From Hyaloperonospora brassicae (lineage: Eukaryota; Oomycota; Peronosporomycetes; Peronosporales; Peronosporaceae): 64,000 nt of DNA. The first letter of the stretch is position 1. Each line of letters opens with the position of its first letter. Made by a program: the position numbers and the translations under genes. A model generated the notes under the pieces. That model had not been told where the DNA came from, ran no database searches, and was given only the letters and a program-made list of their open reading frames with translations. Below are positions 15,620 to 61,774 of this stretch, one piece after another. The stretch spans positions 1 through 64,000 of the forward strand of contig CANTFL010001406.1 of assembly GCA_947650285.1 (NCBI GenBank). The letters run 5' to 3'.

Positions 15620-15930
15620 AATACGTACGCATCCTACGTGGCAGCTCAATAGTGTATGCGTTGTCTTGTCGGAGCAGCACCCGAAAGGGGCCGACATTTT
15701 TGGGCAGCAGTAAAATGCTTCACACGTTAGTCTCTACATGTCTAAATAGATTTACCGTTACAAGTAGTAATATATAGCCTTCAATAAAAGAAAGAACAAT
15801 TGCTCTTTCATTCTTGTCAGCGTCCCGTTTCAGCCTGTCTAATACGTGAGAGTTGGAGATCTGCACGAAACAAACCAATATTTCTCGATCCAGCGGAAAT
15901 ACTTCTGCTGACGGGACATTATTTTGTTCA
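14990..15930 (-). pseudogene. A2 pol: integrase C-terminal part and chromodomain
   Basis: Read on the minus strand, about 15125-15060 gives ERILN, then SYLVQWQGYLPLWNS, the chromodomain core seen in A1 as [17 protein letters not shown]. Further upstream is the GPY/F-type module near 15600-15750. The Trp that ends the core is followed by a stop in A2. The chromodomain of chromoviral integrases binds histone marks and guides insertion. It lies antisense to the plus-strand frame described separately. Confidence 0.6.
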
Positions 15931-16039
15931 GTTCCGTTGTGCTAACTGCAGAAAGAGCCCTTTCCTAATTCTTTCATTCATCAATGGTGTCATCATCCTA
16001 GCTGGAATAGTCGTTGGAGATGCTAAAAATACCAGCATC

Positions 16040-16960: not shown

Positions 16961-17118
16961 TGGCAACTGCCGTTTAGTACAGCAACCCGTTGCATATAGT
17001 GTACCGATCCGATGAGAAACAATACAAAGCCTTTACAAACCTTTTAACGACTCACGAGATGGATTTCCCAGATGATCCATCAAGGGCATAGGAGCCTTGT
17101 ACATTGCGAAGGCCTTCC

Positions 17119-18560: not shown

Positions 18561-18639
18561 TTCAGGCAACACATCCCATAATTCTATCGAATTCTTAAAC
18601 AAAAGATTTGCATGAAGCGACTCTCAGGTATGAGGCGGT

Positions 18640-20960: not shown

Positions 20961-21022
20961 GCTTTTAACCTCATCCAACATGTTTATATTGAATGCGGTT
21001 GTTGTGGCCGTTAGACGGACTT

Positions 21023-21035
21023 CAAAGTGCTACCA
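21023..21035 (-). promoter_or_regulatory. A2 primer-binding site
   Basis: On the minus strand this reads TGGTAGCACTTTG two bases inside the 5' LTR, identical to A1. It pairs with a tRNA ending CAAAGTGCTACCA. The first eight bases match initiator-Met type primers but the rest does not, so the tRNA is unassigned. Confidence 0.65.
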
Positions 21036-21037
21036 GG

Positions 21038-21310
21038 TGTAACGGGCACGCTTTTGTCCGATGACTGAGAAGACCTTGTGTTGACTAAACACAAGGCCGC
21101 GTGCTCCCGACGTCACTTACGCGTAGAGAGGAAGAGCAACCGAAGCAAACAGAAATTGAAAGCTCAGTTTGAGGAAAATTAGAACTGTATTAAGTAGAGG
21201 TATGTTTATTTAATAAGTTATCTTTGTCTTCATCTAACGATATTAAACTACGATATCTTCTAGGTGGGGTTCTTGCTCACCACCCATTGCGCGCGTCCAG
21301 CAGCGGTTGG
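21038..21310 (-). repeat. 5' LTR of A2, outer end truncated
   Basis: It starts at the inner end with TGTAACGGGC and aligns with 13238 to about 13510. Similarity stops at the GCGGTTGGTG block near 21305, where unrelated DNA begins. The outer quarter is missing. Confidence 0.7.
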
Positions 21311-21939
21311 TGGTTAACGAAGTTTGCTCGTCAAACAGAAATAGTTCATATAGCTGAAAGTTGTAGATTCTACGCTACATTTAGTAGCACTTGTGGTCAT
21401 TTAACGCCTGATTCGTTAAGAGTGATCCTTTGTAAGATGGGAAATATCTATCTCTCTTCGTGAGCACCAGAGTGTCGCGCATGATTAATATACCACGGCT
21501 GTAGTCCAGGATCATATGGATCTTCTTTTGTCGCAAAGCTTGGACGTGCTTAATACACAACTTGAGGATTATTTGCAATACGAAGCGAATCTTGTAGGAA
21601 AATCCTATTTCCAAATGTCGTCGGCTATGCCGATTTGACTTGTATTTAAATCCGATAAAAAGACTAAGCATCGACCTGATAAATTAGACATCACACGCTA
21701 CTTGGGTAAGAGAGAGAAAATCGCATCCTCTGGAACCACGAAAAAAGATGGTATTCATACGTTGCGTATGATATTAATTGGATTACAGCGGGTCGCAATG
21801 GCGATCAACAAGGTCGATGATAGAGCGAGAGAGTGGGCATCTACGTGCAGCGCGTCCGTCGATGTAATTATCTGAATGGGTTGAATTGAAGCTACAACTA
21901 ACCCTAAAATTTGCTTCACCTAATCATGCATATCGCGTG

Positions 21940-30470: not shown

Positions 30471-30790
30471 GATCTGGTGCTACATTATGTGACCTCGTTA
30501 ACCTTACCGATGCTGAGAACGTGATCACACAATCACTCTAATAAATTTTCGTTTGATAGCGGCGGTATAGGTAACGGCTAACTTTAGCATCCGAAGCTAA
30601 GCTAGAGCGAGAAGGTAAAGAGACCAAGGCGTCCACGGGACTATTGGTAAATCTTTTTACGTACATACAACCGACGTAAATTATCATCCGTTTAGATAAA
30701 TGAGGAGAGAAAGATAGAAAACCTACACCGATTGCATCGCGACCCGATATGGATCCTGGAGAAATAGAATGGCGACCGGGGCGAGGATGG

Positions 30791-31902
30791 TGTAGCGACC
30801 AATGACATTCGCGATACAGGTACAGATCGCGTTCCCGTTATATCTGAATTAGCAAACGGTTGGATTGCCAGTCCCACACCTGGTCGGATCAAGTTCATTA
30901 GACTGTTTGACAGAACCTGATATCAGATCAGAAAGGATGGGACTTGCGACATCAGCTTAAAATGTGACGGACGAAGGTCATAAGTAATAGAGTACTAATT
31001 AGTGTCAAGGGGGCGATCACGATGGCGATCAAGGAGGTGATTAATATCGTGATCGATGACTGGGTATGTGATCGCGATCAGGTTGGTGTGGACCACGATA
31101 AGCGATCGCGATCAGCGGAGCGTGTGCACACCATGTGATCCGCGATCAGCAAGGCCAACGCGATTGAAGAGGTGATCGATATCGTGATCGTTGATCGGCT
31201 ACGTGATCAAGATCAAGCTAGTGTGGGTGCCACTACACAATCTGCGACCAAAAAGGCGTTTGCGATCAGACAAGTATATCAGATGTGTACCACACAAGTA
31301 AAAGGGTACGATCTTCTGTAGAGAGCGACACGAGGCATGCGATGTCTTTGATATGGGTATAGGGTTAAGGTTGTTGGTTTTGATTGGTTGACATATAACA
31401 GAGTTCAAATTGATTCTGAGTAACGTATTGATTTTTCCTCCGGGTTTTAAAACTAGCCACTTGACGTGACAGAGTACGCTACATTTGCATCAGTATCGCA
31501 CCTGGATTGTTTGGCACAATACGCTAAGGCACCCTTACTCCCTACAACTGCAATTGTACGTAGAAAACCATTTGTGGTTGAGGATTTAAGATCGCGAGAC
31601 GGCTCAAGTGGTCAAAAGGCTCGCAAATTAAGGCCCAAATTTGGACAAGGCAATCTGTTATAGATCAGGGTTACATATATCGAGCACTCTACAAGTAGAC
31701 ACGTGATCCCGTAAACAATTTTACCAGATCACGTCAACAACGATCGTGGTGTGAAGGCTTCCACACTAAGATCGAATTTCGACCCCATCGCAACTACGGT
31801 CAAGTTTTTTTTGAAGAATTGGAGTATCCTCTCCATTTTTCGGTTGTCCAGGCGCCCTAGTGATGATATCGACTTGTAAAAATAGCGATAACCACTCCAC
31901 CA
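30791..31902 (+). repeat. 5' LTR of B2
   Basis: Bases 30791-31618 match 43050-43877 with about 11 differences counted by eye. After 31618 the similarity to the 3' LTR drops sharply. The stretch 31015-31316 has 16 GATC sites. Confidence 0.75.
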
Positions 31903-43000: not shown

Positions 43001-43049
43001 ATTCAGATCGACACTATATGGCGACTAACGGCGCCGAATACGACTATGG
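40040..43049. other. B2 3' region, content unrecognised
   Basis: Open stretches occur on both strands: 40859-41203 (+, 114 codons), 41372-41641 (+, 89), 41721-41978 (-, 85), 42061-42321 (+, 86) and 42547-42825 (+, 92). None resembles a family I know. The place corresponds to the antisense gene of A1 and E0, but I could not align either protein here. A perfect 18-bp inverted repeat lies at 40903-40995. Confidence 0.4.
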
Positions 43050-44181
43050 TGAAGCGACCTATGACATTCGCGATACAAGTACAGACCGCGTTTTCGTTAT
43101 ATCTGAATTAGCAAACGGTTGGATTTCCAGTCCCACACCTGGTCGGATCAAGTTCATTGGACTGTTTGACAGAACCTGATATCAGATCAGAAAGGATGGG
43201 ACTTGCGACATCAGCTTAAAATGTGACGGACGAAGGTCATAAGTAATAGAGTACTAATTAGTGTCAAGGGGGCGATCACGATGGCGATCAAGGAGGCGAT
43301 TAATATCGTGATCGATGACTGGGTATGTGATCGCGATCAGGTTGGTGTGGACCACGATAAGCGATCGCGATCAGCGGAGCGTGTGCACACCATGTGATCC
43401 GCGATCAGCAAGGCCAATGCGATTGAAGAGGTGATCGATATCGTGATCGTTGATCGGCTACGTGATCAAGATCAAGCTAGTGTGGGTGCCACTACACAAT
43501 CTGCGACCAAAAAGGCGTTTGCGATCAGACAAGTATATCAGATGCGTACCACACAAGTAAAAGGGTACGATCTTCTGTAGAGAGCGACACGAGGCATGCG
43601 ATGTCTTTGATATGGGTATAGGGTTAAGGTTGTTGGTTTTGATTGGTTGACATATAACAGAGTTCAAATTGATTCTGAGTAACGTATTGATTTTTCCTCC
43701 GGGTTTTAAAACTAGCCACTTGACGTGACAGAGTACGCTACATTTGCATCAGTATCGCACCTGGATTGTTTGGCACAATACGCTAAGGCACCCTTACTCC
43801 CTACAACTGCAATTGTACGTAGAAAACCATTTGTGGTTGAGGATTTAAGATCGCGAGACGGCTCAAGTGGTCAAAAGGCACGCAGATCAAGCATCTCCGT
43901 TGGTCAAGGCGATCTGAACCAGATCAGCGAAACTCATATAGAGACCCACCCACAACATACGCAATCATGTGAAGGTTTCCGCGCGATAGCCCAAATCACA
44001 AACACGGTCAAGTTCGGCATTAACTCGAGTCCGCCTCGAGAATAGAAACCCGCCCACCGACAGGTACACAAGGTGAGCAAAGTTTACAACAAGAAATTGG
44101 AGAAGCCCCTCCGCTGGTCGATCGTCCATGCGCCAGTGGTCATTGGGATCGACTTTAAAACAAAACATCGCAACTCCTACA
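43050..44181 (+). repeat. 3' LTR of B2 (mosaic)
   Basis: The left 828 bp match the 5' LTR closely. From 43878 on the sequence instead matches B1 (27030-27310) closely. The end is placed at CTCCTACA by comparison with the other LTRs. Confidence 0.7.
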
Positions 44182-47827: not shown

Positions 47828-47832
47828 GGAGG

Positions 47833-48224
47833 TGTAACGGGGCAGCCCGTTACATGGATTTGTCACTTTAGGGAAAGTGACAATAAAGAATATTACGTTG
47901 AATATTCTTTTAACAATATCACCAATCGTGGTGATATTGAAGGGTCGACCAAAGAGTCTGTTCATTGGTTGATATCTTGATGATATCAACCCACCAATCG
48001 CCGCAAGACGCGCGCGATGAGTGGTGACGAGACGTCACCATACACTCAGTTAGATTAGTATAATTTAGTTAAGTCAAACAGAGAGACAGTGGTTCAAAGA
48101 CTTAATTATATTAATATAACAGTTCTGCTTTTACCTTACCCACGCTTCCTCGCTTGCCTTGTGTACGTCTGTCGGGGCACCGATACCCTTGCGTGAAGTT
48201 CACGCAAGGGTGTGCCCCGTTACA
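47833..48224 (+). repeat. 5' LTR of A1
   Basis: It starts TGTAACGGGGC and ends GCCCCGTTACA, an 11-bp terminal inverted repeat. It contains at least six perfect hairpins (arms 8-12 bp) at 47834-47853, 47862-47881, 47885-47910, 47914-47939, 47967-47991 and 48186-48210. The motif CCCGTTACA appears both 13 bp inside the start and at the end. Confidence 0.95.
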
Positions 48225-48226
48225 CC

Positions 48227-48239
48227 TGGTAGCACTTTG
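48227..48239 (+). promoter_or_regulatory. A1 primer-binding site
   Basis: TGGTAGCACTTTG lies two bases after the LTR and is identical in A2. It is complementary to a tRNA 3' end CAAAGTGCTACCA; the tRNA is not assigned. Confidence 0.75.
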
Positions 48240-48268
48240 TAATCCTTTCAAGGACCACAACATCCAAG

Positions 48269-49422
48269 ATGAGCATGTTGGATGACGAAGAGACCTTTCA
48301 CGCCACGCGTGAAGGGTTTACCCATTTGAGTGACATCGAATGGGGTGCGGTAGAACGAATGAGTTCTACCGTAGGCGAGTTCGCCATTAGCGCCATGTTG
48401 GAGTCTCTAGACAGAGACCAACAACATGCCGCTATCGCCAAGTTCATTCAAAATGAATTTGTCGCCGAAAGAAAGAAAGTAGCCTTGCTTCACCAGCAAG
48501 GCTCTCAACAGACCGAGCAGTTGAGAAAACTCGGTGCTCAACAGACAGAGCTGTTGAGACAGCAACAATTCCATGCTGCTGTGGGCGGGACGGCGCATGC
48601 GCGTCGTCCCGAGGTCATGAAAGTTGACATCTCCAAGTACAGTGGAGTCCCGGAGGACTCCATGTTACTATGGTTTGTCGAACTCGACAGAGCCCTAAGG
48701 GATCGTCGCGTCGAAGACGAGCAAATGAAACTCACATTTGCTCAAACGCACTTGGCGGGGGGGGGGGAACTTGGTCCCTGGGACTCGAGAGTAGCGACCC
48801 AAACGTGTTTAGGTCGCTAGATGACTTCAAGTCCCGGCTCAGACAAACGTTTGAGCCGCCACGTGCTGAGTTCAGGGCTCGTTCAGAGCTCCTGAAACTC
48901 AAGCAGGGTAAGCGTGATGTGCACGCTTACGCACAACATATACGACTCCTTGCGAGTAGTATAACTGCAAACTCAGTTCATGAACAAACGTTGATTACGG
49001 TGTTCATGCAAGGGCTCGCAGAAGGGCCCGTCAGGAGCCACCTGTTCCGCCTTGAGCTGAATACGCTTGAAGAAGCGATATCAGCCGCGGAACAGGAAGA
49101 CTTTAGCATGAGACAGGCTCATGCTAGCTCAAACTCTTACCGTCCACCGAGACGACAAGAGATCGGAGGTCCAGAACCAATGGACCTTTGCTATGTTGGG
49201 AGCGAGAGACCTCGCTCTTCAAACAACAAGCGATTGCAGAGGTGCAATCGCTGTCAGAAGTTAGGGCACTACGCATACGAGTGTAGTGCTCCACGCCCAG
49301 TACCAAACAGTACTGAGCGAAATGGACGACCATTCGCCAGAAAGGGCAATGGGCGTGGGTCCAGCGCTGTTGCGAAGCCGCAACAGCGAGAAGGATCATC
49401 AAAAAATGGTCGAGGTCAGTAG
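48269..49422 (+). pseudogene. A1 Gag (one frameshift at an 11-G run)
   Basis: The first 184 codons from the ATG at 48269 (MSMLDDEE) give an acidic N-terminus, a Gln-rich helix (EQLRKLGAQQTELLRQQQ) and the start of the Gag core (VDISKYSGVPEDSMLLWFVE). At 48757-48767 eleven Gs shift the frame. The second part (to 49422) has LGLESSDPNVFRSLDDF, RSELLKLKQGKRDVHAYAQH, FMQGLAEGPVRSHLFRLEL and the nucleocapsid knuckle CNRCQKLGHYAYEC (C-x2-C-x4-H-x4-C, codons 49243-49284). The Gln/Arg/Gly-rich end stops with TAG. Ten or twelve Gs would reopen the frame, so a sequencing error at the homopolymer is possible. Confidence 0.85.
49401..49407 (+). promoter_or_regulatory. Candidate -1 frameshift heptamer at the gag-pol junction
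   Basis: A-AAA-AAT is in the Gag frame five codons before the Gag stop. Slipping by -1 here leads exactly into the frame that stays open through the protease. The heptamer is conserved, in the same Gag phase, in A2. A2 has an indel nearby that puts its protease in the other frame, so the case is not settled. Confidence 0.4.
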
Positions 49423-50678
49423 GGGCGGAGCGCCCTACTGATCCAGCAACCTCAAGAGAATTTGCAAATCTCTTGACGAAAGTTGCTCCAGATACACAAT
49501 CATTGTGTGTCTCTGCACCTGGTGATGACGTTTCGCTCATCACCTTGAAGTTGGAAGCGACAAATGATTTGTCGCTTCGTGCCCTAGTAGACTGTGGGGC
49601 GTCGAACAAATTTGTTCGACGCCATTCACTAGAGGGTCGTAGGCTCAAGTTCGTTGAGTGCGACATTCCCCTCACAAGGATGACGGTTCGCCTTGCAACA
49701 GGCGCATCGATTACCGTTGAGAAACGTGCAGTAGGAATCCACTACACGTTAAAGGGCGAACAGGGCGATGATGACTTCATCGTACTAGATCTGGATGACA
49801 AATTTGATGTCATCCTAAGATTACCTTGGCTCAGAAAGTACGAGCCAAGGGTGAGCTGGCAGCATCGATCCGTGAAGATGCCTGCCGCTTGTTCATCAGA
49901 TGGCCATCTGATGAACGTCTTGGAGCGTCCACAAGCGTGTGGATGTTCTGCGAGTGAGTGCGATGACCTCACTTGCGGTACGGTCGTTAGCACGACTGCA
50001 CAAGATCACAGTGTAGTTGATCACTACAATGTGGGGCAAGCTCCCGGCGGCTGTATACAAGAACAGGCTGCGCCGAAGGTCCACCACTCGAAGAAGTCGA
50101 GGTGGACCGGGACATGGGTCCATGCCTAGCGGGCAGCATCGTATACAAAAGAAACCTGTTGCCTCCAAAGGGCAACATGGACATCCTGGGTCGACTGGAG
50201 AGTCGACTATAGAAGATCGGTGCCTGACTGTGGTTGCACAGCCACAGTCGGAAGACGTCGAGGAAATAAATCCCCACTTTCTGAGGAAGGAATTCCTCAA
50301 GTGTCACTTGCTGAAGGATCAGGCCCTCAGCAACCTGTGGAAGCAAGTTCCCAAGAAGAAACCGAGACGTTGAACGTCTTGGTTAATGACGGATCAAGCG
50401 TAGGCGCTTATACGCTTGATCTGATTGTGCCTCCGAAGTTAACTTCGGAGATAACTCAGTTGCAAACGCTAGAACAAAAACGGTTCTTGCGTGATCTGCG
50501 TAGTGGCAAAGTCAAGCAGATCTGCATACTCGTCACAGAGGATGAGTATGTGGCCGATATTCGGTCGGCCACAGTATTTGCTGAGAACAAACGGGTTCTT
50601 ATCAGCTCATCGATGGACGAAAGTGTCCTCGATGAGAAGACTCGGATTGAGCGATACACATCTCAATCCTGGGAGTAG
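49407..50678 (+). pseudogene. A1 protease and protease-RT linker
   Basis: The protease frame reads SLRALVDCGASNKFVRRHSL (retropepsin site with Asp-Cys-Gly, a known variant of Asp-Ser-Gly), RMTVRLATGASITV, FIVLDLDDKFDVIL and WLRKYEPRVSWQ. The DNA of the active site forms a perfect 26-bp palindrome (49598-49623). After 50070 the frame moves by an inserted base, returns near 50350 and continues with NVLVNDGSSVGAYTLDL to a TAG at 50676. The next codons are in frame with RT (LQANPLYKDLIEFRD), so this stop alone separates the two. Confidence 0.75.
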
Positions 50679-50693
50679 CTTCAGGCAAATCCT

Positions 50694-52259
50694 TTGTATA
50701 AGGATTTGATCGAATTCAGGGATGTGTTCCCTGAATCCGTACCTTGCAAGTTGCCTAAGGACAAAGGCGCTCGACACGAGATCGAGCTCAAACCGGGCTC
50801 GAAGTACTGTGTCATGAAGCAGTGGCTACTGCCTCGTGAACAAGTACTAGCGATCGACCAGTTATTTGACGATCGATTAGCAGCGGGCCTTGTGAGGGAA
50901 TCAACATCCCTTCACAGCTCTCCGACCTTCTGTGTGCGAAAGGCCACAGGAGGGTGGCGGATAGTGCACGCATTCAACAAGTTGAATGCTGCAACGGTAC
51001 CGGCTCAGACGCCGATACCGAGGAAGGACGTAATCATAGATGGTTTGTCAAAGAGTACCATCTTTTCGTCCATGGATCTGATGGATGGCTTCTATCAGAT
51101 CCTCATGCGTGAACGGGACATCCCGTTCACAGCAGTGAGCACCCCCAGCGTTATGCTGCGGGAGTGGCTAGTGATGCCAAAGGGGCTGAGCAATGCCCCT
51201 GCAACATTCAACAGATGTGTAACAAATCTGTTGAGACCGGTGCGAGACTTCGCACCGAGTTACTTCGACGATGTGTTCGTCCATAGCCGAACTATAGACG
51301 GAAAGACGGACGTTAAAGTTCGCAGAGCTCACGTTCGTCAAGTCCTTCAACTTATGCGCAAGCATAAGTTGTATGCCAACCTCAAGAAGTGTATATTCGC
51401 GGCTAGCGAAATACCACTTCTTGGGTGCATCGTGGGTAAACACGGCGTACGCCCTGATCCCAAAAAGATCAAGGCGATCACCTACTGTCCAGTGCCAGTC
51501 GATGTCAAGGGACTAAGGAAGTTCCTTGGTCTGGCGGCGTACTCGCGCAACTACGCCGAGATGACTGTTCATCTTTCTTGCTTGCTCAAGAAAAATGTCA
51601 AGTGGTCATGGAACGCTGAGTGCCAGCGTTCCTATGAAGGTATCAAGCAAAGCTCGATGCAATCGCCGATCTTGGCGATTGCAGATCAGGACATGCCATT
51701 TCATGTGGTCTGTGACGCCAGCGATTTCGCAATCGGCTGTGCGTTGATGAAGCTCGACGCAGATGGCTCGGAGCGCGTCATCTGTTATCAGTCGCGTCAG
51801 CTGCCAGTAGCTGAGCGCAGTTACCCAGTGCATGACAAGAAACTCCTTGCCATGAAATATGCACTGGCCAAGTTCTGGGTCTATCCCTTGGGAGATAGAC
51901 CGTTTGTTGTCTATACGGACCATGCGTCATTACGCACGGCCGTAAACAGCCCACACCTCTCGCAAAGGATGGCGAGGTGGCTGTCATTGTTCGCCGAGTA
52001 TAACTTCTCCGTGGAGTATAAACCGGGACGACTCAATGTCGTCGCGGATGCTCTTTCGCGCCGGCCCGATTTCGAGCCGGACGCACAATCCAACTGTGAG
52101 GATAAGCCCACTGTTGCGACACTGTCAGTCAGTGTCCCGTCGTCAAGTTTACTTGACGACGTACGAAAGGCATACGCGGAAGATAAGGATCTTCTGCGAT
52201 TGATGGATCATCTGGTAAATCCATCCAGTAAATCCAAGAGGGATCTACCGGCTTTGTAG
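50694..52259 (+). CDS. A1 reverse transcriptase-RNase H (521 codons open)
   Basis: This is the longest open frame of pol. RT blocks: WRIVHAFNKLNAAT (residues 88-101), SMDLMDGFYQIL with catalytic Asp128, LSNAPATFNRC (165-175), SYFDDVFVHS with Asp192/Asp193, and LGCIVGKHGVRPDPKKI (243-259). The thumb is LGLAAYSRNYAEM. RNase H has CDASDFAIGCAL (Asp341), TDHASL (Asp409) and VADALSRR (Asp452). In VHDKKLLAMKYAL, Lys383 (codon 51840-51842, AAA) stands where the catalytic Glu is expected; A2 has GAA. The RT looks active on sequence, the RNase H does not. The listed Met is not the real start, since the frame continues upstream to the TAG at 50676. It ends with TAG in a place where integrase normally follows. 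Confidence 0.85.
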   Translation: MYKDLIEFRDVFPESVPCKLPKDKGARHEIELKPGSKYCVMKQWLLPREQVLAIDQLFDDRLAAGLVRESTSLHSSPTFCVRKATGGWRIVHAFNKLNAATVPAQTPIPRKDVIIDGLSKSTIFSSMDLMDGFYQILMRERDIPFTAVSTPSVMLREWLVMPKGLSNAPATFNRCVTNLLRPVRDFAPSYFDDVFVHSRTIDGKTDVKVRRAHVRQVLQLMRKHKLYANLKKCIFAASEIPLLGCIVGKHGVRPDPKKIKAITYCPVPVDVKGLRKFLGLAAYSRNYAEMTVHLSCLLKKNVKWSWNAECQRSYEGIKQSSMQSPILAIADQDMPFHVVCDASDFAIGCALMKLDADGSERVICYQSRQLPVAERSYPVHDKKLLAMKYALAKFWVYPLGDRPFVVYTDHASLRTAVNSPHLSQRMARWLSLFAEYNFSVEYKPGRLNVVADALSRRPDFEPDAQSNCEDKPTVATLSVSVPSSSLLDDVRKAYAEDKDLLRLMDHLVNPSSKSKRDLPAL

Positions 52260-53120
52260 CGATCCTCATCGGATCGGTATAGCACACGCAACGGATTGCT
52301 GTACTATACAGCTGTTGCCAACGACACGCCTCGTGTCTTCGTACCCGCTCATTTTGATTTGCGTTTACGCATCATGTATGAGTGTCACGATGCCCCAACG
52401 GGCGGCCATCTGGTAGAGAAAGGACTTACCTCACGGTAAGTCGCGACTTTTACTGGCCCCGCCAGTATCAGTTTGTTCGCAAGTACATACGTGCTTGCGA
52501 AGTTTGTCAACGGGTGGAGCCTAGTCCTTCATCCCGTGCGCCATTGCAGCCTCTGCTTGTTCCGACAGAGTGCTGGTAGTCCGTTTCAATGGACTTCTTC
52601 TTCGGGTTTCCCGAAGACGCTCACAAGAATTATGGTATTCTTGTGTTTGTTGACCGATTAGAAAGATGGTCCATCTTGCTGCTGTCCCTGAGTCGATCAA
52701 GGCTCAAGGTTGTGCTCGTGTCTTTCTAGACACGGTCTTTAGACTCCACGGGTTACCCCGTGAACTCGTATCCGACCGTGACCCTCGGTTCACGGCGGCA
52801 TTTTGGCAAACCGTGTTCCGTTCTCTTGGAACACGATTGAAGATGTCCACTTCTGACCATCCAGAAACAGATGGTCAGGCGGAACGTGCGAACCGTGTCC
52901 TCGAAGAGATTCTTCGAGGATATGTCCACTCGTTTCCGAGTTGGAGCGAATTCCTACCCATGGTAGAATTCGCCATCAATAATTCGGTGCATGCTTCAAC
53001 ACAGCACACACCGTTTTACGTGAATGGCCTACGCCATCCACGATTGCCCACCCTTATAGAGTGTGACTCTTGGATAAGGGGGGAGGGACTCGCTCGAGCA
53101 AAAACCGTTATGGCTCTTGC
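52260..53120 (+). pseudogene. A1 integrase zinc module and catalytic core
   Basis: Zinc-binding residues are in ECHDAPTGGHL, then, after one lost base, DFYWPRQYQFVRKYIRACEVCQRVEP. A TAG at 52577-52579 follows TECW, where A2 has CAG. Catalytic residues are intact: Asp in SVSMDFFF (codon 52592), Asp in SDRDPRFTAAFW (codon 52774) and Glu in DGQAERANR (codon 52882), with 35 residues between the last two. A base is missing near 52655, inside FVDRxSKMVHLAAV. Confidence 0.8.
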
Positions 53121-54302
53121 TCATCACGTGTCGACGCAAACGTCGTCACGTATGATGCCGATGTCGATCAAGTCGACATCGATGAAGAAGATCATCTCAA
53201 TAATAGCGAAGACGCTATTATTCATTCGGATGATGATGACGATGCTGGCATATTCAGCATTGCCAACGATTATGCCAGCGAGGAAGAAGACAACCTCGCT
53301 GAAGAAGAGAGCAATCTCTTAGCAGTGCGCACGAATCGCACTGAAAGACAAAACAAAGAGTCAGCAGAGAACTTCCTGCTGACTCGAGAAGCGGTAGTCC
53401 GTTTCGTTCAGGACTCCATCGCAAATGCGGTGGACCTTCAGAAACGGAACGCAGACAAGAATGAAAGAGCAAATGTTCTTTCATTTAAGGTTAACGACCT
53501 AGTACTACTGTCTACGGTAAACTTACCTGGACATGCAGTCACTAGTGTCGGCAGTAGTAAACTACTGCCGAAATACATTGGGCCATTTCAAGTGTTGCAT
53601 CGCAAGGACAATGCATACACACTCGAATTGCCACGTAAGATGCGCACGCATCCTACGTTTTACGTGGGGAGGCTTAGGTCGTACTGTCAGTACGAGCCTG
53701 CATCTTCCGATGAAGATAGCCCCCACGTTCAAGAACATCCATCAAGCTCTTGCGTTCGCGCTCCAGACGATTCGTCTGGTCGCGCAGATATGATACCTCG
53801 GTATTCAACCGAGATATCTCCCCGCGAGCTGTCGCCAGCTCGCCGAAAAGAGAGCGGACATCCCGCTCGACCTGAAGCTGCGCCGTGGCATAATCGGCGC
53901 GATCCCTCGCCCGATCAGCCTCGTGACCCTTGCGGTTCTTCCGCACGGTATCTGTCAAAGCATAGCGCCGGTCGCGCTCGTGCTTCAAGTCATCGCGCAA
54001 TTCATCGATTGCGCGATCTATCTCGTAAGGGTCGAAATGGTGAACCGAATCATCTGGAGGAGGTCTTCCCTCCTCCACCACATCCTTTTGTCGATGCTCA
54101 CGGTGATAAACGCTTTCTAGTGGAGCGTATCTTGAATTAACGTGACGATTCAGGATCAAGGACGAGCTACCTCGTCCAGTGGCGGGGGTATCCACCCTCT
54201 TGGAACAGCTGGGAGTCCCGCTCTCAGCTGTTGATGGATGTTGAAGGTCTCGTCCGCCAGTATGACGAGACCCATCCGATGAGTCCTGTGGTCTATCGGT
54301 AA
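53070..54302 (+). pseudogene. A1 integrase C-terminus: acidic linker, GPY/F module and chromodomain
   Basis: The frame has an acidic stretch (DVDQVDIDEEDH … SDDDDDAG), EAVVRFVQDSIANAVDLQKR, LSFKVNDLVLLSTVNLPGHA and the GPY/F module LPKYIGPFQVLHRKDNAYTL … THPTFYVGRLRSY. A 130-residue Ser/Pro/Arg-rich linker follows. After FLVERILN and a TAA (54138-54140), the same frame gives [20 protein letters not shown], a chromodomain core, and ends [13 protein letters not shown] with TAA at 54300. The linker and chromodomain are antisense to the minus-strand frame 55281-53674. The linker's odd composition is what one expects when the other strand is the constrained one. Confidence 0.75.
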
Positions 54303-55281
54303 ACACGCGCCCTAGGCGCTTGTAGACGGATTGCAAGTTTGCAATCGCGTCACGCATCTCCTTCGAGAGATGTGCCCTTCCCCAGGGCAAACTTAGGGAA
54401 TACACGTCCCTATGTGCACGTTGCGAGTTGTCAGCACAACTCGCACAAGGGTCTCCCCATGTGAGGCAAGGAATGTCTGCCTCACTCGATAAACAATGCA
54501 ACCGGTAATTATCACCGGTTGGCGTTCGCCTTTCGGACCTAAGGCGTGTCGCCTCAAGTTTCTTGAGCCATCCTTCTCGTCCAAAATTCTTGACGTTATG
54601 GACGAACGCGTTCCACGCAGCAAAAAGCGATGCCTTGTCACGCTTTTAGCTGACGTTGTACCATCGATGTCGAAGGAAGACATCGAGATAAAAATCTTCC
54701 TCAGCGCGAAAGTTCTTCGCGCTGGAACTCAAGCCGTGAAGCTTAGTTGCATCGAATAAGGGTATTCGATGGTGTTGGCCTGTCTCGTGAGACAGGCTAT
54801 TGATGAGCCGTTCGGGCAAACGCCACGGCTTCGACTCATCACGCTTCACAGTGGTACTCTTGTCGGTACCACGGCTCCCAAATTGACGACGGCTCACGCC
54901 ATCGTCATCACGCTCATGCGAAGACGCACGAGCCGGTGGTGGTGAGCTATTATATTCCTCACCACCTTGATCATCGTCATCACTGCCGAACAGACTGTGA
55001 GGCAAATCACGAGTCCGTTCGTTCGGCAGTGGTCTTGGCGAATACTGAGGCGTCGCCGGTGAGCAAGACGCCTCCGGAGCATTGTCCGAGTCAGACACGT
55101 CTGACTCGCCAGAATAGATGATCTCAATGTCGGGGTCATCGTGCGCACGCGGTGTGATACCGCGTGCACCTGCAGCACCTGTTGCTGCAGGCGAAGAAGT
55201 GGCGGCAGACGACGAATCGTCTGCCGCAGAGGCTTGCACAGCACCGGGCTGTGTGGGTCTTGAGTCACCTCGCATAGACAT
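53674..55281 (-). pseudogene. A1 antisense gene: conserved acidic/coiled-coil protein of unknown function (one stop)
   Basis: From the ATG at 55281, 132 bp from the 3' LTR, one frame runs 535 codons to a TAA at 53674, with a single TAA at 54646-54648. The N-terminus is Ala/Ser-rich, then AGARG and DPDIEIIYSGESD, an acidic part (SLFGSDDDDQGGEEY), basic patches and YLDVFLRHRWY (ends at the internal stop). The second half has SLFAAWNAFVHNVKNFGREG, a Cys cluster (CLTWGDPCASC), [15 protein letters not shown], and a C-terminal coiled coil from DRAIDELRDDL to QTNRLERERKSL. A2 encodes the same blocks in the same order. Over about 75 codons of the coiled coil, differences between copies fell at antisense positions 1:2:3 in the ratio about 13:17:26, which favours coding in this direction. 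Known plant Tat/Ogre elements also carry an antisense gene here, but I see no sequence relation. Transcription would have to start in or near the 3' LTR. Confidence 0.7.
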
Positions 55282-55400
55282 GTTAACTATGCCAGGTCAA
55301 GCGGAAAGTGAATGGAACGGACCCAACAAGTGCTCCCTGTCCCAATGGTGGCCAACGGGTGACCGCCATATTTTCGATAGTCACACGGTGACTATCAGTT

Positions 55401-55412
55401 AAGGGGGGGTGA
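55401..55412 (+). promoter_or_regulatory. A1 polypurine tract
   Basis: AAGGGGGGGTGA lies directly before the 3' LTR start at 55413, the normal site for plus-strand priming. Confidence 0.8.
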
Positions 55413-55804
55413 TGTAACGGGGCAGCCCGTTACATGATATTGTCACTTTAAGGAAAGTGACAATAAAGAATATTACGTTGAATATTCTTTTAACAATATG
55501 ACTAATCGTGGTGATATTGACGGGTCGACCAAAGAGTCTGCTCATTGGTTGATATCTTGATGATATCAACCCACCAATCGCCGCAAGACGCGCGCAATGA
55601 GTGGTGAGTAGACATCGTCATACACTCAGTTAGATTAGTATAATTAAGTTAAGTCAAACACAGAGACAGTGGTTCGAAGACTTAATTATATTAATATAAC
55701 AGTTCTGCTTTTACCTTACCTACGCTTCCTCGCTTGCCTTGTGTACGTCTGTCGGGGCACCGATACCCTTGCGTGAAGTTCACGCAAGGGTTTGCCCCGT
55801 TACA
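55413..55804 (+). repeat. 3' LTR of A1
   Basis: The length equals that of the 5' LTR. About 18 differences were counted, clustered at 55588-55622 and near 55500. Five of the six hairpins of the 5' LTR remain perfect here. Confidence 0.95.
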
Positions 55805-55809
55805 GGAGG

Positions 55810-56936
55810 CGAACGAGCAAGAGTATGTACTTGCTTGCGCCCTGAGTATTGGCGAAAATGCAAGATGGTGAGAGTTCGACGAAGGTCGGCCGACCAATAT
55901 CGGCAGGAAGATGCACCCACAATCGGATGATAGAGAGCTTAAGAATCATTGTTTGTAGGACGTTCAAACAAATATCACTTCTACTTTCAAAGCATCCTCT
56001 ATCCCTATATAGTCTAACACTATGTGGGGAGGTCGAGTATCGTCGACGAGGCCTCCACCACGTAAAATTGGCGATTAGCTTCCCTTTCAGGTGGCACGCT
56101 GCGTTGCCTCCCGTAGCACGCGCAGCGGAGAAAAGGCCTCCCGACTTATAACCTTGGCACCACAAAGGGGACTTTTTGTCCAATGTAATGAGGACAGATA
56201 CAGGACAGTCTTAAATTTTATAGTATAGATGGAGCCCCTAAATTTTCAATAATATAAGAGAAATAATAATTAATAGAGTTAGGGGGTAGAATGTAATCGA
56301 CAGGTGCTACATGCTGTCATTGAGGCGTCTCGGCATGATTTTCGTTCATGAGCTTGTAGTTCAAACAGTTTGGTGTAGCAGCACCTAGCGAGAGGTCATC
56401 GGCTCGACATTCGGTGAATGCAGTAAAAACTTCAAGCCTTCGGGTTCTGGTGTGCCGGAGTTCACCAGCACTGTCCTGTCAGGCAGTGACATCCCCTACT
56501 TAAGGTGTGTGTAAGTGTTTGTTAGAAACACATTACCTAGCAGGAGACTGGAGATGAGTTTTTAGCGATGATTTAGAAGATGCAGGATCAGGTGGGGAAG
56601 CTACAGCAAAGTTTCCTGAAGAAACAAACTTTAGGTAGCAATTTATTTTGTAGTGGTCCCTCGGCAGTAATTTGATAATTGTATTGCGAAAATTTTCAGA
56701 CTGAAATAATCAAAAAATAAGGAAGTCTTTTAACATTTGGCATGGGTCAACCATGAGACACAAACTGTTTCATAAGTAAGGGAAGGTATTAAATAAGAGA
56801 ATGAAAAATCACAGAGACTCTACTGTAAGTGACTCTGAGCAAGTCTCCGTCTATGTCGTCGGTTGCTCGAAGAGCCCATCAAAGGAAGTCAGGGTTGCGC
56901 TAGTGGCAAAGCATTAAAACAGACGAGTACATCTTA
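55810..56936. other. Flank between A1 and R1 copy 2, nothing recognised
   Basis: A 100-codon frame at 55849-56151 (+) overlaps a 127-codon frame on the other strand. Neither has a domain. The rest is AT-rich. Confidence 0.4.
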
Positions 56937-57433
56937 TCGACGTGACAACCGTTGGCACGCTCTCTGGAATGGCAGCTGTTCTCGAAAGTGAGGGGCTCAC
57001 CACGAACGACGCAGAATTCCAGCACGTGGAGAGAATCTCTTACGCTCAGGACTTGACCATTGTGAACGATTGTCGATCACGGGCAGCTCCACATTGTCGA
57101 GTCCTTTCGTTGTGGTGATACAATGTCCTGGCAATGCAATTTCCACGCAAAAAAGGCAGAAATGTCGACCCCACGCTTCAGTTTCCCAACGATGGGATGG
57201 AGGGGTGACTTGTCGCAGCGACAGCTCGACATGCTCGTAGAAACGAGACAGCGCTGCATTGTTGTCATGGACGTCGGGGTCGCACGCATTCATCGAGTCA
57301 GTCTGAACACAAGGGAGTATCATACGAAATGTCCATGCTAGCAGACTGGATTGGGAAACGTCCGGCTGGCACGATTGGGACTATGTGTTTCGCGCGTCGC
57401 GCTGTTGCAGTCGACGTTTGCCTCGCGCCATTT

Positions 57434-57450
57434 GCCCATTTACACATTCG
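57434..57450 (+). promoter_or_regulatory. Candidate oomycete initiator, copy 2
   Basis: GCCCATTTACACATTCG aligns with the copy 1 initiator at 7310. Here the second half (CACATT) is better and the first has one change (GCTC to GCCC). It is 44 bp upstream of the ATG at 57484. Confidence 0.5.
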
Positions 57451-57483
57451 CTCTCCGTCCGACGACTCACCACCGGAGCAACT

Positions 57484-58194
57484 ATGCGATACCGCGTCGC
57501 GCTGGCTCTGCTCGTGGCTACCTGCGCCGCACGCTTCGTCAGCTCCACCTCCATGGACGACCGTGTCAACAAAAAGACCGAGACCAAACCCGAGACCGAG
57601 ACCGAGACCGAGACCAAGACCAAGACCGAGGAAGAGGACGTGAATGGGGACGACAGCATTCAGGAGGAGAGGGCTCCAAGTTGGGGTATTCTGAAGGCAA
57701 AACTTCCTGCAGCCGTCAAAAACGAACGAGATGTGACTGCAAGCGCGTTGAAGGCAATCGCCACCAACACAGACGAGGCTGGAGCTGGACTGAAGAACGC
57801 TGCTAACAAAGTAGACGACATGGGGGATGACGCGTTGAAACTTGCCAAAGTCGGAGATGATGCGGCCGTGGTCGCCAAAAAGCCATGGTCAAAAAAGAAA
57901 AAAGTGTTCGTTACTTTAGTTGCGGCGGCAACGATCGCTGGGACCATCATGTTTTTTATGAACATGAGAAGGGGACCAACGGTGGCGACTACGGGTGGAC
58001 AGTTTGCGGTAATGGACAGCTCGTCGGGCCCAGCGATGGACAGCTCGTCGGGCTCAGCGATGGACAGCTCGTCGGGCTCAGCGATGGACAGCTCGTCGGG
58101 CTCAGCGATGGGCAGCTTTTCAGGCTTAGCGCTGGACAGCTTGTCGGACTCGATGTTGGACGAAATGGCGGCCACGGGTTTTGGCGGCGCGTGA
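57484..58194 (+). CDS. Secreted EER-motif candidate effector with a transmembrane segment and C-terminal repeats (copy 2)
   Basis: The 236-residue paralogue of the protein at 7360. The signal peptide (residues 1-21), the Thr/Glu/Lys repeat (one unit longer), SIQEER and the Ala/Asp/Lys helix are nearly identical to copy 1. From KKPWSKKKK on, the membrane segment (VFVTLVAAATIAGTIMFFM) and the next 20 residues are unrelated in sequence but similar in character. The C-terminus has about six AMDSSSGS-type repeats and ends LDEMAATGFGGA. The frame is intact. The longer frame from 57385 starts before the candidate initiator and lacks a signal peptide at its N-terminus, so it is not used. The role is inferred only from secretion and the EER motif. 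Confidence 0.8.
   Translation: MRYRVALALLVATCAARFVSSTSMDDRVNKKTETKPETETETETKTKTEEEDVNGDDSIQEERAPSWGILKAKLPAAVKNERDVTASALKAIATNTDEAGAGLKNAANKVDDMGDDALKLAKVGDDAAVVAKKPWSKKKKVFVTLVAAATIAGTIMFFMNMRRGPTVATTGGQFAVMDSSSGPAMDSSSGSAMDSSSGSAMDSSSGSAMGSFSGLALDSLSDSMLDEMAATGFGGA
58010..58160 (+). repeat. 24-bp minisatellite in copy 2 (about 6 units)
   Basis: Units of the form ATGGACAGCTCGTCGGGCTC plus AGCG are repeated head to tail, with outer units diverged. Three units (about 58034-58106) are identical. Confidence 0.8.
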
Positions 58195-58808
58195 GACTGG
58201 ACAAGGGAACGTTGGGCTCCGCCTAAATGTAGCCAGAAATCGCCGCCAAATCGCTTTGTTTGATGGTTCCAATACAATCTTTTGCCACTTCGTTTGTTGC
58301 GTTATTCGTCTCATTCGCTTTGTAGACATTCTACTGACCCCATGACCAGCACCGACCGGCCGACCGACCGGACGCAAAGACCCCTTCGTCTCGTGCGTAG
58401 TGGTGTCCAATGCGTCTGTGGTACGTACTTTCCTCGAGTCTCGCGCTGCTCCCGTCTCGACGTGATTCGTCTCCGGCGTCTCTGGTCGATGCTGCAGTCT
58501 CCGAGCTAACAACAGAGCGATCATATATACCCCCAACAGCCAACAGATTGTCGACCAGCAGCGCGACAGCGACCACGTAGACGAGAAGCTCTGGCAGCAA
58601 CGTATGCGATCACTGCTGATGTGCTACAGAAGGAGACGACCGACCGATCGATTGTCTGTTGCGCTGCGGTACGAGATGAAAGCACAGCGACGAATCTGTC
58701 TGGAAACGCCAATTGTATAGCTGACAGCGGCACATGTCGTGCCGTTTTCTCCCTCTCTTTCGCTCGCTAGCTCTCTCTCTCCTCACTCTCTCGCTATTAG
58801 TGTATAGG
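58195..58808 (+). other. Spacer with pyrimidine tract and probable intron acceptor, copy 2
   Basis: It matches 8161-8776. The CT-rich tract at about 58745-58800 ends in TAGTGTATAG. Confidence 0.4.
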
Positions 58809-59463
58809 CAACAGCAACAACTCGACGCTCTTGGGGTAAACGAGAAAGCGCTGCAGAACGAACTTCTGTCAGTCATTCCTGCAGCTGTGTCGAGACTGCG
58901 TCGTGTGCTCGACAGTACCAGAACGTGGGGCATCGATGCGGCCGTTGGTTGATGGAGTGTCAATGATATGAGACCAGCACAAGGTCCACCTGCTTCATGA
59001 TGGGCTGATGTTGCTGGTGTTGCAATGTCAATCGGACTTTGACTTTGCTCAAGTCGGGGACGTGTCGTGGCGACTAGACCATGTGCTGCATTCGAGTGGG
59101 GCTGAAAGTGATCACGAACCACTGTACGTTGTGCAGCAGCGAGTGCAGTCGCCTTGACCTCTTCATGGCTTGGAACTCCAGGCGATTGTGTTGACGTGTG
59201 GAGTGGAAATGTCGCGAGTGCTCATGTATCGCATCCGCAGGCGACTGACTGCTCATGAAGTGGAGAAGCTGATGACGGGAACGGTGTCAAAGGTCCGACT
59301 CACGAGCACAGGAGCGCGTAGAAACCCAGGCACGTGTGGAAAAGCGAATAGTTGCTGCATCGAGCGAGTCTTGGTCAGGAAGGCCGTGTTGTTGGGACTG
59401 GCCACGTTGCTTCAGCAGTCGAGTCGGTCCAAGTCGAGAGGTTTGGCACTGCAAACAGACTGA
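58809..59463 (+). pseudogene. COMM-domain family gene remnant, copy 2
   Basis: It is colinear with 8777-9442: QQQQLDALGVNEKALQNEL, then after breaks DVSWRLDHVLHSSGAESDHE and SRVLMYRIRRRLTAHEVEKL. A missing base near 59040 breaks the entry to the COMM domain, so this copy is more damaged than copy 1. Confidence 0.45.
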
Positions 59464-61774
59464 CATCACTTGACAATGCTTTTCGACAATGTCGTGGCTG
59501 CCGTTTGCAGGTACGATGTCCGTCTCTCACTTCGCGATAGCTCTTTCTCGAGTGGTGCTTCTCGTCGAACCATGCGCATGTGTCGACGATGGACAGACGT
59601 GAGCTCTTGGACGTTGGCGCTCGATCGTGATCGTACGCGGACTGGAGTCCGACTACTCGTATCAGCTGTTCGGCCTCGTCCGTTCGCTTATCGGCTTGAC
59701 AGTGGTCATCCGCCAACTCGTGCTGCTGCCCGACGCACGTCTCGATCGTCAAGCACTGACGTCCAGTCCCTCGATCACGCGACCAACTACTGAAGCAAGA
59801 GCAATACCGACCGACTTTCGTATCACGACGAACTAGTCATCACCCCCTTCACCGCAAATGACATCGTTGGTCCGGAGCGCCGGTACACTGGCCTGTTCGA
59901 GATCATTAGTGGTGAATGGACAGTGAGCAAGTCATGTGCCCCTCATGACCATGACCAACTACGCTTCTCGACAACGACAAGGGTGGCGATGTGGTCACCT
60001 GTGCGGATGACAGAGATCCGGTCAACCAGTGTATACAGACGACCAGCATTGCGGGCACTTACCGAAGTTTCTGCCATCTGCACAGCGACTCGATTGTCGC
60101 CTCCAAGCTCGATCCACCACTTGTTCCAAAAGCAGTTCCGGTGGCCTGTCATGCCCGAACGGTACATCCTCTGCTCCCTGCCAGACGGTGTTCAGGCGCA
60201 CCAGGCGCACGTTCGATATGAAGCTGTCGATGCACTCTTGGAACTGCACGGGTCTGATCACTACCTCGTCGATCCGATCGATAACACTAACCCATCGATC
60301 CGATCGATAACGTCTCGGCTTGGACAATCGTTCCATGCGCGAAGGACACGTTGCAGACCAAAACGGATTCGCTTTCACTGTGGGCACACTCATACGTGGT
60401 CAACTGCCATGTGTGTCACGAATCACTTGCAACACACATCACTTGCAACATGCTGCACTCGACATACGAAGCGTTTGTCCTCGTTCACGCCAAGTCCTGC
60501 TTTCAGCTGGCTTGTCTTCGTGATTAGACAAGCACCACGTCAGGTCGTGCTATCATTGTCCAGGCAACAGGCTCGACCAACTCAGCACGCACTTTTCGTT
60601 TTGTGTGCACTATGAAGCTAGCACTCGCCATCCCGTCAGCAGAGAAGTCGTTGTCATGGCCACGTCCACCACCACCTTCGCATGAGATATTTCGAGCTCG
60701 AGCAGAACTGGACCGGATGTTTTCGCGCCCCGGGTGCTGACGTATGCTTCGGCGTACTCTCGACTGCGATCAGGGAAGGCTGCGTCATGGTTACTGCCAC
60801 CAGCGTGTGGGTCACCGACAGCCACATGACGACAGATGGAGCGATACGGCAAGATACTGCAGACGCATGTGCACCTGACTGCCTGTGGTATTAAAGTCGC
60901 CGGTGAGGCCGGTGCGACGTCGGCAGCGGTTTGCGCGAAGCAGAGAGTGCTCATGGCTTTTGTGGCTGCTCTGTCGATCGAGACTGCCAAGCTGAAGCAC
61001 CACTGTGCCGTTGAGCTGAACGAAGTGGGCGTGATGCCATGTCATGAACGGCTTCTTGCAGAGCGCTTGGCACAACAACTTGCTGTCGATATTACGGAGT
61101 CGCTTGACCCGTACACGAAGAAGCCAACGCGATGGACCTGTTGCTGCTGTTCTGCAGCATGTCGATGGTCGCCCCGCTGAAAATGGAGCAATTGTGGCGT
61201 GAAAACGCCACCAGATTCCGCGATGGTACTCCATTGAGGAACCGGCAGAAGACTGAGAGACAGAGAGAGAGCAAGCGCGACCGCACAGCGAGTGTTACTG
61301 ACACGTCGCAATCCCAACTCAGTCTACACTGGCTGCGCGTCTTCTGGTCGTTCACGTTCCATCCTGTGATGACTCGTGACGCGTCCAAACAGCGCCTGCA
61401 GACCCCACTGAAGCTGTTGGCCAACATGACGGACCTTCTTGATGGTGTGCCCACCCGCTCGTCTCCGCGTGAACGTCCGAACTCGCTCCGCTCTCGCCGG
61501 CTGTCGCACCGGATCAGTCGGTCGGTCGATCGGTGACAGACCCGACGCCATTCGATGTGCGCTGGCAGTGGCTCGACGTGTGGACGACGGACTGTTCGAC
61601 GTGCACAATGTGGCACCTTTGGCGCATGGGAACGCATACCTCCTATTTGCAGTATCGGTTTCGACAGGGAGCGCGAGCACTTGGCGGTGCTCCTGCGCAT
61701 TGTTGCTTGATGTCCGTCGGTTTGATTGGTAGAAACATCGTTCGCAGGGACTGGGCGTTTGTCTCGCGTCCCTC
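59464..61774 (+). pseudogene. Unidentified decayed coding-like region of R1, copy 2
   Basis: It is colinear with 9443-11740. The largest open piece is 59923-60615 (230 codons); 61132-61536 matches 11086-11500. Frame breaks differ from copy 1, as expected for independent decay. No family was recognised. Confidence 0.35.

Follow-up and report, generated by a model that had tools for sequence, protein, structure and literature searches.

Conserved short perfect hairpins along Ty3/Gypsy retrotransposons of Hyaloperonospora brassicae point to a role for genome folding

Introduction

Among the closest described systems is GORS, in which folding energy is raised along a viral genome. The highest virus mean named for it is 23.4%, with single SARS-CoV-2 regions peaking above 50%; its pairings are poorly conserved between relatives and its duplexes are interrupted (PMC7642675). 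Template switching has been proposed, in the available part of one source, as creating and maintaining hairpins (PMC8794818). Small RNAs of Phytophthora transposons are given as 25-26 nt long in the accessible text of PMC3804510.

The window, meaning the whole stretch of DNA analysed here, comprises 64,000 nt of the oomycete Hyaloperonospora brassicae (assembly GCA_947650285.1, contig CANTFL010001406.1, positions 1-64,000, forward strand). An earlier note had described one retrotransposon in it, here called A1, as built of near-contiguous perfect hairpins.

The element and its relatives

A1 (47833-55804, forward strand, 7972 bp) is a chromodomain-type Ty3/Gypsy LTR retrotransposon with gag, then protease, reverse transcriptase, RNase H and integrase in this order, and a chromodomain. 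The window copy is decayed. It is flanked by the 5-bp direct repeat GGAGG (47828-47832 and 55805-55809), a target-site duplication, and its LTRs, 95% identical and both on the forward strand (5', 47833-48224; 3', 55413-55804), have the termini TGTAAC...GTTACA with the TG...CA ends. On the same strand, the gag region (48269-49422) consists of two overlapping ORFs, the second carrying Retrotrans_gag and a zinc knuckle, and is followed by the protease region (49473-50129, RVP_2) and a 521-aa reverse transcriptase and RNase H ORF (50694-52259; RVT_1, RT_RNaseH). The integrase core ORF (52666-53322) has an rve match that is weak in A1 and strong in the copy L029; the ORF of the integrase C-terminus (53070-54140) holds a Tf2-type SH3 domain (SH3_Tf2-1), which in L029 is followed by the chromodomain (Chromo). 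An antisense ORF region (53674-55281, reverse strand) reads 275 and 211 aa in A1; it is open over 535 aa in L029, with 62% identity to its counterpart in L047. By eye, a TGG-starting PBS-like stretch and a purine tract adjoin the LTRs, and these motifs we take to be the PBS and PPT. No perfect stem lies at the PBS or PPT in A1 or L047.

L047 is one locus of a sister family with 92% identity in gag-pol. The window also contains a related older element, el2 (13247-21312, reverse strand), whose LTRs are 90% identical and which shares about 80% identity with A1 across 6 kb. In the comparison with el2, 6 of 78 hairpins had gaps and were left out. The search for relatives among viral contigs and prokaryote genome contigs gave no locus.

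Hairpin density

Perfect inverted repeats were counted with arms of at least 8 and loops of 0-10. A1 holds 77 of them, against a mean of 1.2 and a maximum of 5 in 200 dinucleotide shuffles. As the earlier note had it, they occur in the LTRs, in gag and pol and on the antisense ORF side alike; the density in these parts is 6-18 per kb. Examples lie in U3 (47885-47910, stem 10, loop 6), in the protease region (49598-49623, arms 13, loop 0) and in the antisense ORF region (55202-55227, stem 11, loop 4), the last region having 18 hairpins; the 5' LTR has seven, including a tandem run of four where U3 begins. Fourteen of the 15 arm pairs given in the earlier note are exact; for the one listed at 53550 the register is wrong, and the actual repeat is 53548-53558/53561-53571. 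The spacing of 25-40 bp given there is too tight: neighbouring hairpins are separated by a median of 56 nt in the window copy and of 30 nt in L029. Their share of the sequence is 23% in the window copy and 33% in three young copies.

The remaining 56 kb of the window contain 29 inverted repeats, 23 of which belong to el2, so that the 48 kb outside both elements hold six. The suggestion that codon use is insufficient holds. In synonymous-codon shuffles (200 per open frame of L029), the expected numbers were 0.36 for gag (13 observed), 1.0 for pol (50), 0.75 for the chromodomain ORF (14) and 0.63 for the antisense ORF (22). Chance, composition, codon usage or assembly artefact is thus a negligible explanation for which no support was found, since both kinds of shuffle fall far below the observed counts, 20 further copies elsewhere in the genome and the sister family carry the trait and one unrelated Gypsy-like element lacks it.

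Of 20 further A1-family copies fetched, 19 have two full LTRs, and each of these contains 99-110 inverted repeats; younger copies in this 100-Mb genome thus reach 110. L047 has 101; compared with the 77 stems of A1, 49 are identical there and 4 compensated. Age, taken as LTR divergence, correlates with stem count at a Spearman coefficient of -0.71 over 20 copies, of which 18 have less than 1.3% divergence; L030, in which one full LTR was matched, was left out. With folding excess the coefficient is -0.47, and the second oldest copy has no loss. An origin from a repeated insert of the Foldback or MITE type was rejected: among 103 hairpins, 87 of 5253 pairs share a 7-mer, as against 85.6 in shuffles.

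The trait was found in two further Gypsy families of the genome, one having stems of 4-5 bp and hardly any longer. Copia loci L042-L045 contain 4-7 inverted repeats in 3.3-3.7 kb (0.35-0.6 expected), and L041 and L046 contain one and none.

Stem length and layout

Stem length is family-specific, with 8-10 bp in A1 and L047 and 4-5 bp, hardly any longer, in L048 and L049. In L029, stems of 8, 9 and 10 bp number 27, 29 and 32 (0.5, 0.1 and 0.1 expected). In L048, there are 83 stems of 4 bp and 56 of 5 bp (45.8 and 10.7 expected), followed by 7 of 6 bp and 1 of 7 bp (2.9 and 0.8 expected). Coding does not explain the stop at 5 bp, because 35 of the 56 L048 stems of this length end at a pair touching a third codon position, near the 33 or so expected from the registers. 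For the 8-10-bp stems of A1, this holds for 15 of 39 (24 expected), and 21 of the 39 end at 1-1 or 2-2 pairs.

The hairpins hardly overlap. No hairpin pair overlaps by more than 3 nt in L029 and one does in L047, compared with 30.4 and 24.8 under random placement; pairs sharing any base number 3 in each (34.8 and 28.5 expected).

The folding-energy excess, calculated in 350-nt windows against dinucleotide shuffles, reaches 47% for the sense and 52% for the antisense strand of L029, and 47% and 43% for those of L047. In the flanks and two Copia loci it is -2 to 6%, and none of the Copia loci has a clear excess. Of 27 sampled 150-nt windows, 26-27 show z<-2 on either strand of both elements. G-U pairs make up 4-6% of pairs versus 12% in shuffles, and the longest predicted helix has 14 bp.

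Selection on the stems

Purifying selection maintains the hairpins by acting on their stems, also at synonymous sites, and not on the loops. Between A1 and L047, synonymous change amounts to 7.4% in arms and 23.5% elsewhere. Between L029 and L047, changed sites number 43 of 1432 in arms, 37 of 406 in loops and 311 of 3338 outside, and the arm value of 3.0% compares with a minimum of 6.1% among 300 rotated sets; for third codon positions the figures are 24 of 462, 18 of 122 and 225 of 1320. Hairpins are gained faster than in neutral simulation and lost after insertion. The L029 branch has 14 pair-making changes and the L047 branch has 6, while neutral substitution yields about two new hairpins per branch, with maxima of 7 and 6 in 60 runs each. 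L029 and the window copy differ equally in arms (54 of 1431) and in the rest (134 of 3326), which fits decay of a dead copy and alone would give no signal of conservation. In U3, A1 and L047 have a common four-hairpin layout, the stem sequences largely differing except for the first. That selection acts on the hairpins is very probable, and the globally folded genome named in the earlier note as a possible cause gains good support from non-overlap, arm conservation, third positions, synonymous sites and folding excess.

Ordinary wobble-tolerant RNA structure was rejected, the stem pairs showing no tolerance of wobble. The non-Watson-Crick states at A1 stem pairs are 11 G-T and 10 A-C in L047, and the variants common to A1 copies are 7 and 15 (22-sequence alignment leaving out L033).

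Explanations of the folding

The conserved hairpins point to an unexplained job for the folding of RNA, or of single-stranded DNA, in these elements. The object of selection is probably the single-stranded folded form, and the molecule that matters would be the genomic RNA within the replication cycle. The leading explanation, held tentatively and at slightly below even likelihood, is that this oomycete Ty3/Gypsy group has a single-stranded genome selected for dense short perfect stem-loops with recognition by Gag. The genomic RNA would fold into an array of short, hardly overlapping hairpins with a stem length set per family, and these stems might offer many dispersed binding sites to Gag/nucleocapsid, read by shape and length rather than by sequence. 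By such binding the protein could condense and pick its own RNA, with protection from nucleases and silencing as a by-product. That the element's own Gag recognises the stems is a best guess, and a somewhat doubtful one. An extension to a structural identity code is unlikely; in it, each Gypsy family would mark its RNA from end to end, coding included, and its own proteins would measure stem length to distinguish self from non-self. Several observations count against the leading explanation. Both strands fold about equally, which favours neither as the active one; inspection by eye of the listed tetra- and pentaloops showed no common motif; A1 has loops rich in A on the sense strand, and those of L048 are A- and T-rich; and wobble tolerance, expected of ordinary selected RNA structure, is absent.

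The main rival, itself rather unlikely, is shielding from silencing. Local hairpins in sense RNA, antisense RNA and cDNA would prevent long duplexes, and self-folding small interfering RNAs would load or bind poorly. This could account for stems made of Watson-Crick pairs only, for the equal folding of both strands and for the absence of predicted helices beyond 14 bp, and the conserved antisense ORF suggests antisense transcripts. Of 110 stem-loops in L029, 102 span 20-28 nt, close to the 25-26 nt reported for Phytophthora in the accessible text of PMC3804510. The share of 25-mers folding at -4 kcal/mol or better is 44-46% in A1, compared with 15 and 28% in two flanking stretches and 20% in one locus of Copia; however, over half of the A1 25-mers have no protection at this threshold. 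The 4-5-bp stems of the L048 family, hardly any longer, are not what shielding would demand, and the Copia elements examined lack such folding.

Mutational drive is quite improbable. Here, reverse transcriptase, or host replication, would switch template and perfect imperfect palindromes, and the hairpins would be its functionless footprint. Stems that are perfect, wobble-free, strand-symmetric and short-range agree with this, but template switching should place all fixed mismatches of a hairpin in one arm. This occurs in L029 versus the window copy (10 of 13, 6.2 expected, P=0.018), whereas against el2 one-arm cases are at chance: 17 (of 48) versus 15.1, 15 versus 13.6 and 17 versus 14.5. With the signature at chance level in five of six comparisons, which are not independent, template switching was rejected as the main source of hairpins, contrary to the earlier suggestion. 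There is little difference between left and right arms, and compensated pairs (double changes) are just 8 of 727, fewer than arm copying should give, though protein constraint may hide some. Moreover, L048 stems stop short at sites free to extend, and in U3 of A1 copies the stems are mostly constant while loops vary, indels included, a few older LTRs having broken stems.

Very improbable, finally, is a role in the cDNA, in which hairpins of the minus-strand single-stranded DNA would aid reverse transcription or protect the product. The folding excess of L029 and L047 is even larger with DNA energy parameters (73-87%) and there is no wobble preference, but strand symmetry fits RNA just as well. 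Stems would, on general grounds, hinder strand synthesis rather than help it, which also speaks against this role.

Comparison with known systems

The statement that no such element had been described is uncontradicted among the top matches listed in a full-text search of the open-access literature. Should the leading explanation be true, there would be a class of LTR retrotransposons that add a second, structural message to their protein code, with a family-dependent stem length and, on average, a larger folding excess than the viruses in PMC7642675. The cause of global genome folding would become testable, as long-stem Gypsy, short-stem Gypsy and hairpin-free Copia elements coexist in one host.

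The A1 group resembles GORS in its genome-wide folding excess, its short duplexes and its many consecutive stem-loops, coding included; in L029 and L047 the raised folding energy likewise runs throughout the genome and not in single elements. Its mean excess of 43-52% exceeds the top virus mean of 23.4% (PMC7642675), with shuffling methods that differ between the two. Unlike in GORS, its stems are perfect, conserved in the sister family and of a length varying by family, and A1 is an integrated LTR retrotransposon rather than a replicating positive-strand RNA genome. Dispersed packaging signals are similarly numerous genome-wide stem-loops and candidate coat-protein contacts; as far as the available text of PMC6281560 goes, they share a recognition motif, which the listed A1 loops do not show by eye, and binding in A1 is putative. 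The genomic RNA of yeast Ty3, from the same superfamily, also has locally stable structures, its well-folded core being about 20% of the sequence, and tiling by perfect hairpins is not described in the accessible part of PMC11381356. Template-switch hairpins share perfect stems and compensatory change with A1, but have, in the portion of PMC8794818 at hand, the one-arm signature that A1 mostly lacks. The coding palindromes of nematomorph mitochondria are, from the available excerpt of PMC6649704, likewise numerous perfect inverted repeats in coding sequence; unlike those of A1, they are mitochondrial and long, reaching 284 bp. Transposon RNA is also locally structured in the miRNA-like regions of maize transposons, which the accessible text of PMC10760457 presents as pre-miRNA-like folds with more small RNAs, unlike the short, tiled perfect stems of A1.

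Identity of the element and its copies

A1 (window 47833-55804, plus strand) is a Ty3/Gypsy LTR retrotransposon with LTR ends TG...CA and the target duplication GGAGG. It carries gag, protease, RT/RNase H, integrase and SH3 domains; a chromodomain was found in L029, another copy in the same genome, and the ORFs are shorter in the window copy than in L029. The closest RT in the databases belongs to Peronospora matthiolae, which points to an oomycete host and probably to a downy mildew. Among A1 relatives in the 100.6-Mb genome, the best 40 of 2126 candidates were scored, and the copy comparison took in 20 other A1 copies. A conserved antisense ORF (window 53674-55281, minus strand; L029 6159-7763, 535 aa) overlaps the sense chromodomain ORF. 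The L029 version is 62% identical to that of L047, the one locus of a sister family. Its relatives occur in Hyaloperonospora arabidopsidis and P. matthiolae, one being named a core-binding-domain protein; coiled-coil families were weak matches.

The window also contains el2, an older A1-related element (13247-21312, minus strand). Another repeat, with 24-bp tandem arrays, is present in two direct copies (86-91%), one upstream of el2 (6791-11754) and one downstream of A1 (56915-61766). An 846-bp direct duplicate occupies 30787-31632 and 43046-43891 (98% identical).

Inverted repeats and their decay

The earlier note described perfect inverted repeats all along A1. A scan for perfect arms of at least 8 bp with loops of 0-10 nt bore this out, yielding 77 repeats in A1 against a mean of 1.2 and a maximum of 5 in 200 dinucleotide shuffles; 14 of the 15 arm pairs listed in that note were exact, and one was off register. 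The 56 kb of the window outside A1 contained 29 inverted repeats; el2 accounted for 23 of them, leaving 6 for the remaining 48 kb. In a folding-energy scan averaged over 4 kb, A1 stood out with z from -4.6 to -6.2 over both strands, as did el2 (-2.2 to -2.8), the remaining bins lying between -0.9 and 0.5. The sole single window below z -4 outside the A1 and el2 bins was at position 40801.

Each of the five copies with identical LTRs has 109-110 repeats, while the window copy, with LTRs 4.85% apart, has 77, close to the 80.5 expected in L029 after 2.5% random substitution. The hairpins therefore characterise the family in its active state and are eroded once a copy has inserted. L047, whose gag-pol is 92% identical to that of L029 and whose LTRs are largely different, has 101. 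For el2, about 55 stems were predicted from an A1-like start after 5% substitution and 23 were found; hence its lineage probably had fewer hairpins already at insertion.

Conservation of the stems

The hairpins are kept by selection, not drift. Between L029 and L047, divergence was 3.0% in stems, 9.1% in loops and 9.3% in the rest, and 300 rotated control sets gave stem values of 6.1-10.2%. Third codon positions changed in 5.2% (stems), 14.8% (loops) and 17.1% (rest) of cases, and synonymous sites in 7.4% within stems vs 23.5% elsewhere. The L029 stems were not conserved relative to the old window copy (3.8% vs 4.0%), as expected from decay after insertion. No hairpin pairs overlapped by more than 3 nt in L029 (30.4 expected), and one did in L047 (24.8 expected).

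Within the compared 6 kb, 49 of 77 L029 stems were identical in L047, 4 were compensated and 24 broken; changes on both sides with pairing retained affected 8 of 727 stem pairs. With el2, itself a decayed copy, as outgroup, the L029 branch showed 14 pair-making and 15 pair-breaking changes, and the L047 branch 6 and 11. Neutral simulation gave about 2 hairpins gained per branch (at most 7 and 6 in 60 runs) and 36 lost, the observed counts being substitutions and the simulated ones hairpins. A four-hairpin chain in U3 is common to A1 and L047 and absent from el2; the first stem is shared, and much of the sequence of stems 2-4 differs. In coding stems, pairing of third positions with each other is the rarest register (11/72), as expected if stems arose mostly by synonymous changes.

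Positions up to 6 nt outside stems were changed more often than elsewhere, both between L029 and L047 (96/821 vs 311/3338) and between L029 and L037, another A1 copy (45/821 vs 94/3338).

Stem length in other families

A query with a Peronospora protein revealed a second Gypsy family, represented by the pieces L048 and L049, which showed a folding excess of 16-20% and no excess of arms of at least 8 bp (1 vs 0.28 expected in L048, 1 vs 0.32 in L049). With a minimum loop of 3 nt, stems of 4, 5, 6 and 7 bp numbered 83, 56, 7 and 1 in L048 (45.8, 10.7, 2.9 and 0.8 expected) and 62, 47, 5 and 0 in L049 (36.3, 7.5, 2.2 and 0.7). In L029, stems of 8, 9 and 10 bp numbered 27, 29 and 32 (0.5, 0.1 and 0.1 expected), with a smaller excess at 5-7 bp. 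The stems of the second family are also conserved at third positions, with changes at 3/133 in arms, 7/55 in loops and 52/478 in the rest for L048, and 6/139, 9/58 and 47/469 for L049.

The last pair involved a third codon position in 35 of the 56 5-bp L048 stems, close to the figure of about 33 that our arithmetic from registers gave. Among the 39 A1 pol stems of 8-10 bp, 15 ended at such a pair (24 expected) and 21 at 1-1 or 2-2 pairs. Thus A1 stems extend until coding blocks them, whereas L048 stems end earlier, coding not being what limits their length. In a third family (L050, 1.9 kb), stems of 7-10 bp numbered 14 (about 0.5 expected) and the folding excess was 12-14%. A Gypsy-like control from a record labelled Wolbachia plasmid (L051) had no stems of at least 8 bp and an excess of 3-4%, and six Copia loci (L041-L046) had just -2 to 6%. 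In four of the latter (L042-L045; 3.3-3.7 kb each), perfect inverted repeats numbered 4-7 (0.35-0.6 expected), and folding showed no clear excess. Stem length is family-specific in this survey, which covered one host genome and three groups of Gypsy elements, two known only from 1.9-2.7-kb pieces.

Possible mechanism and alternatives

The hairpin trait is under selection, and the selected form is most likely a folded single strand, of RNA or of cDNA. We infer that the stem-length set point is best accounted for by an element-encoded reader that would measure stem length; as such a reader fits best, Gag may be guessed to play this part.

The main rival is that the hairpins shield the element from silencing. 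The stem-loop span is 20-28 nt in 102 of 110 L029 hairpins, near the 25-26 nt given for Phytophthora transposon small RNAs in PMC3804510. However, a fold of -4 kcal/mol or better is reached by only 44-46% of the 25-mers from A1, and the short-stem L048/L049 family is at odds with shielding. Template switching, one of the causes suggested in the earlier note, would fix all mismatches of a hairpin in one arm. Among hairpins with at least two one-sided differences, such cases against el2 stayed at chance level (L029 17/48, 15.1 expected; L047 15/44, 13.6; L037 17/44, 14.5), as did both L029/L047 comparisons, albeit with tiny samples (2 and 4 cases). Only L029 against the window copy showed an excess (10/13, 6.2 expected, P=0.018), so such events may have contributed to a minor extent. 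Ordinary RNA structure was rejected, G-T not being favoured over A-C in L047 (11 vs 10), in variants common to A1 copies (7 vs 15) or in single-copy variants (26 vs 29).

Folding strength and geometry

The selected stems are nearly all Watson-Crick and could therefore act on either strand. Base pairs in the predicted folds bridge short distances (17.5-19 nt at the median, 38-44 nt after shuffling), predicted helices reach 14 bp at most, and G-U pairs make up 4-6% vs 12% in shuffles. Stems of at least 8 bp are concentrated where the loop is 0-15 nt long; a second, weak excess lies at 21-50 nt (16 each in L029 and L047, about 3 in shuffles), and hardly any such stems have loops beyond 50 nt. Stems of at least 7 bp with loops of 16-70 nt enclosed another hairpin in 8/43 (L029) and 12/49 (L047) cases. 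In L029, loops are enriched in A on the sense strand, at 35% compared with 24.5% outside. The PBS and PPT of A1 contain no perfect stems.

In 350-nt windows compared with dinucleotide shuffles, the folding-energy excess was 47% (sense) and 52% (antisense) in L029 and 47% and 43% on the two strands of L047, against -2 to 6% in two flanks and -1 to 3% in two Copia loci. The novelty of the trait was judged against the open-access literature that was searched. For comparison, a coronavirus paper (PMC7642675) gives 7.5-10.7% for HCV, about 15% for SARS-CoV-2, a top genome mean of 23.4% and single regions above 50%; the 43-52% of L029 and L047 was obtained by a different shuffling method from these values.
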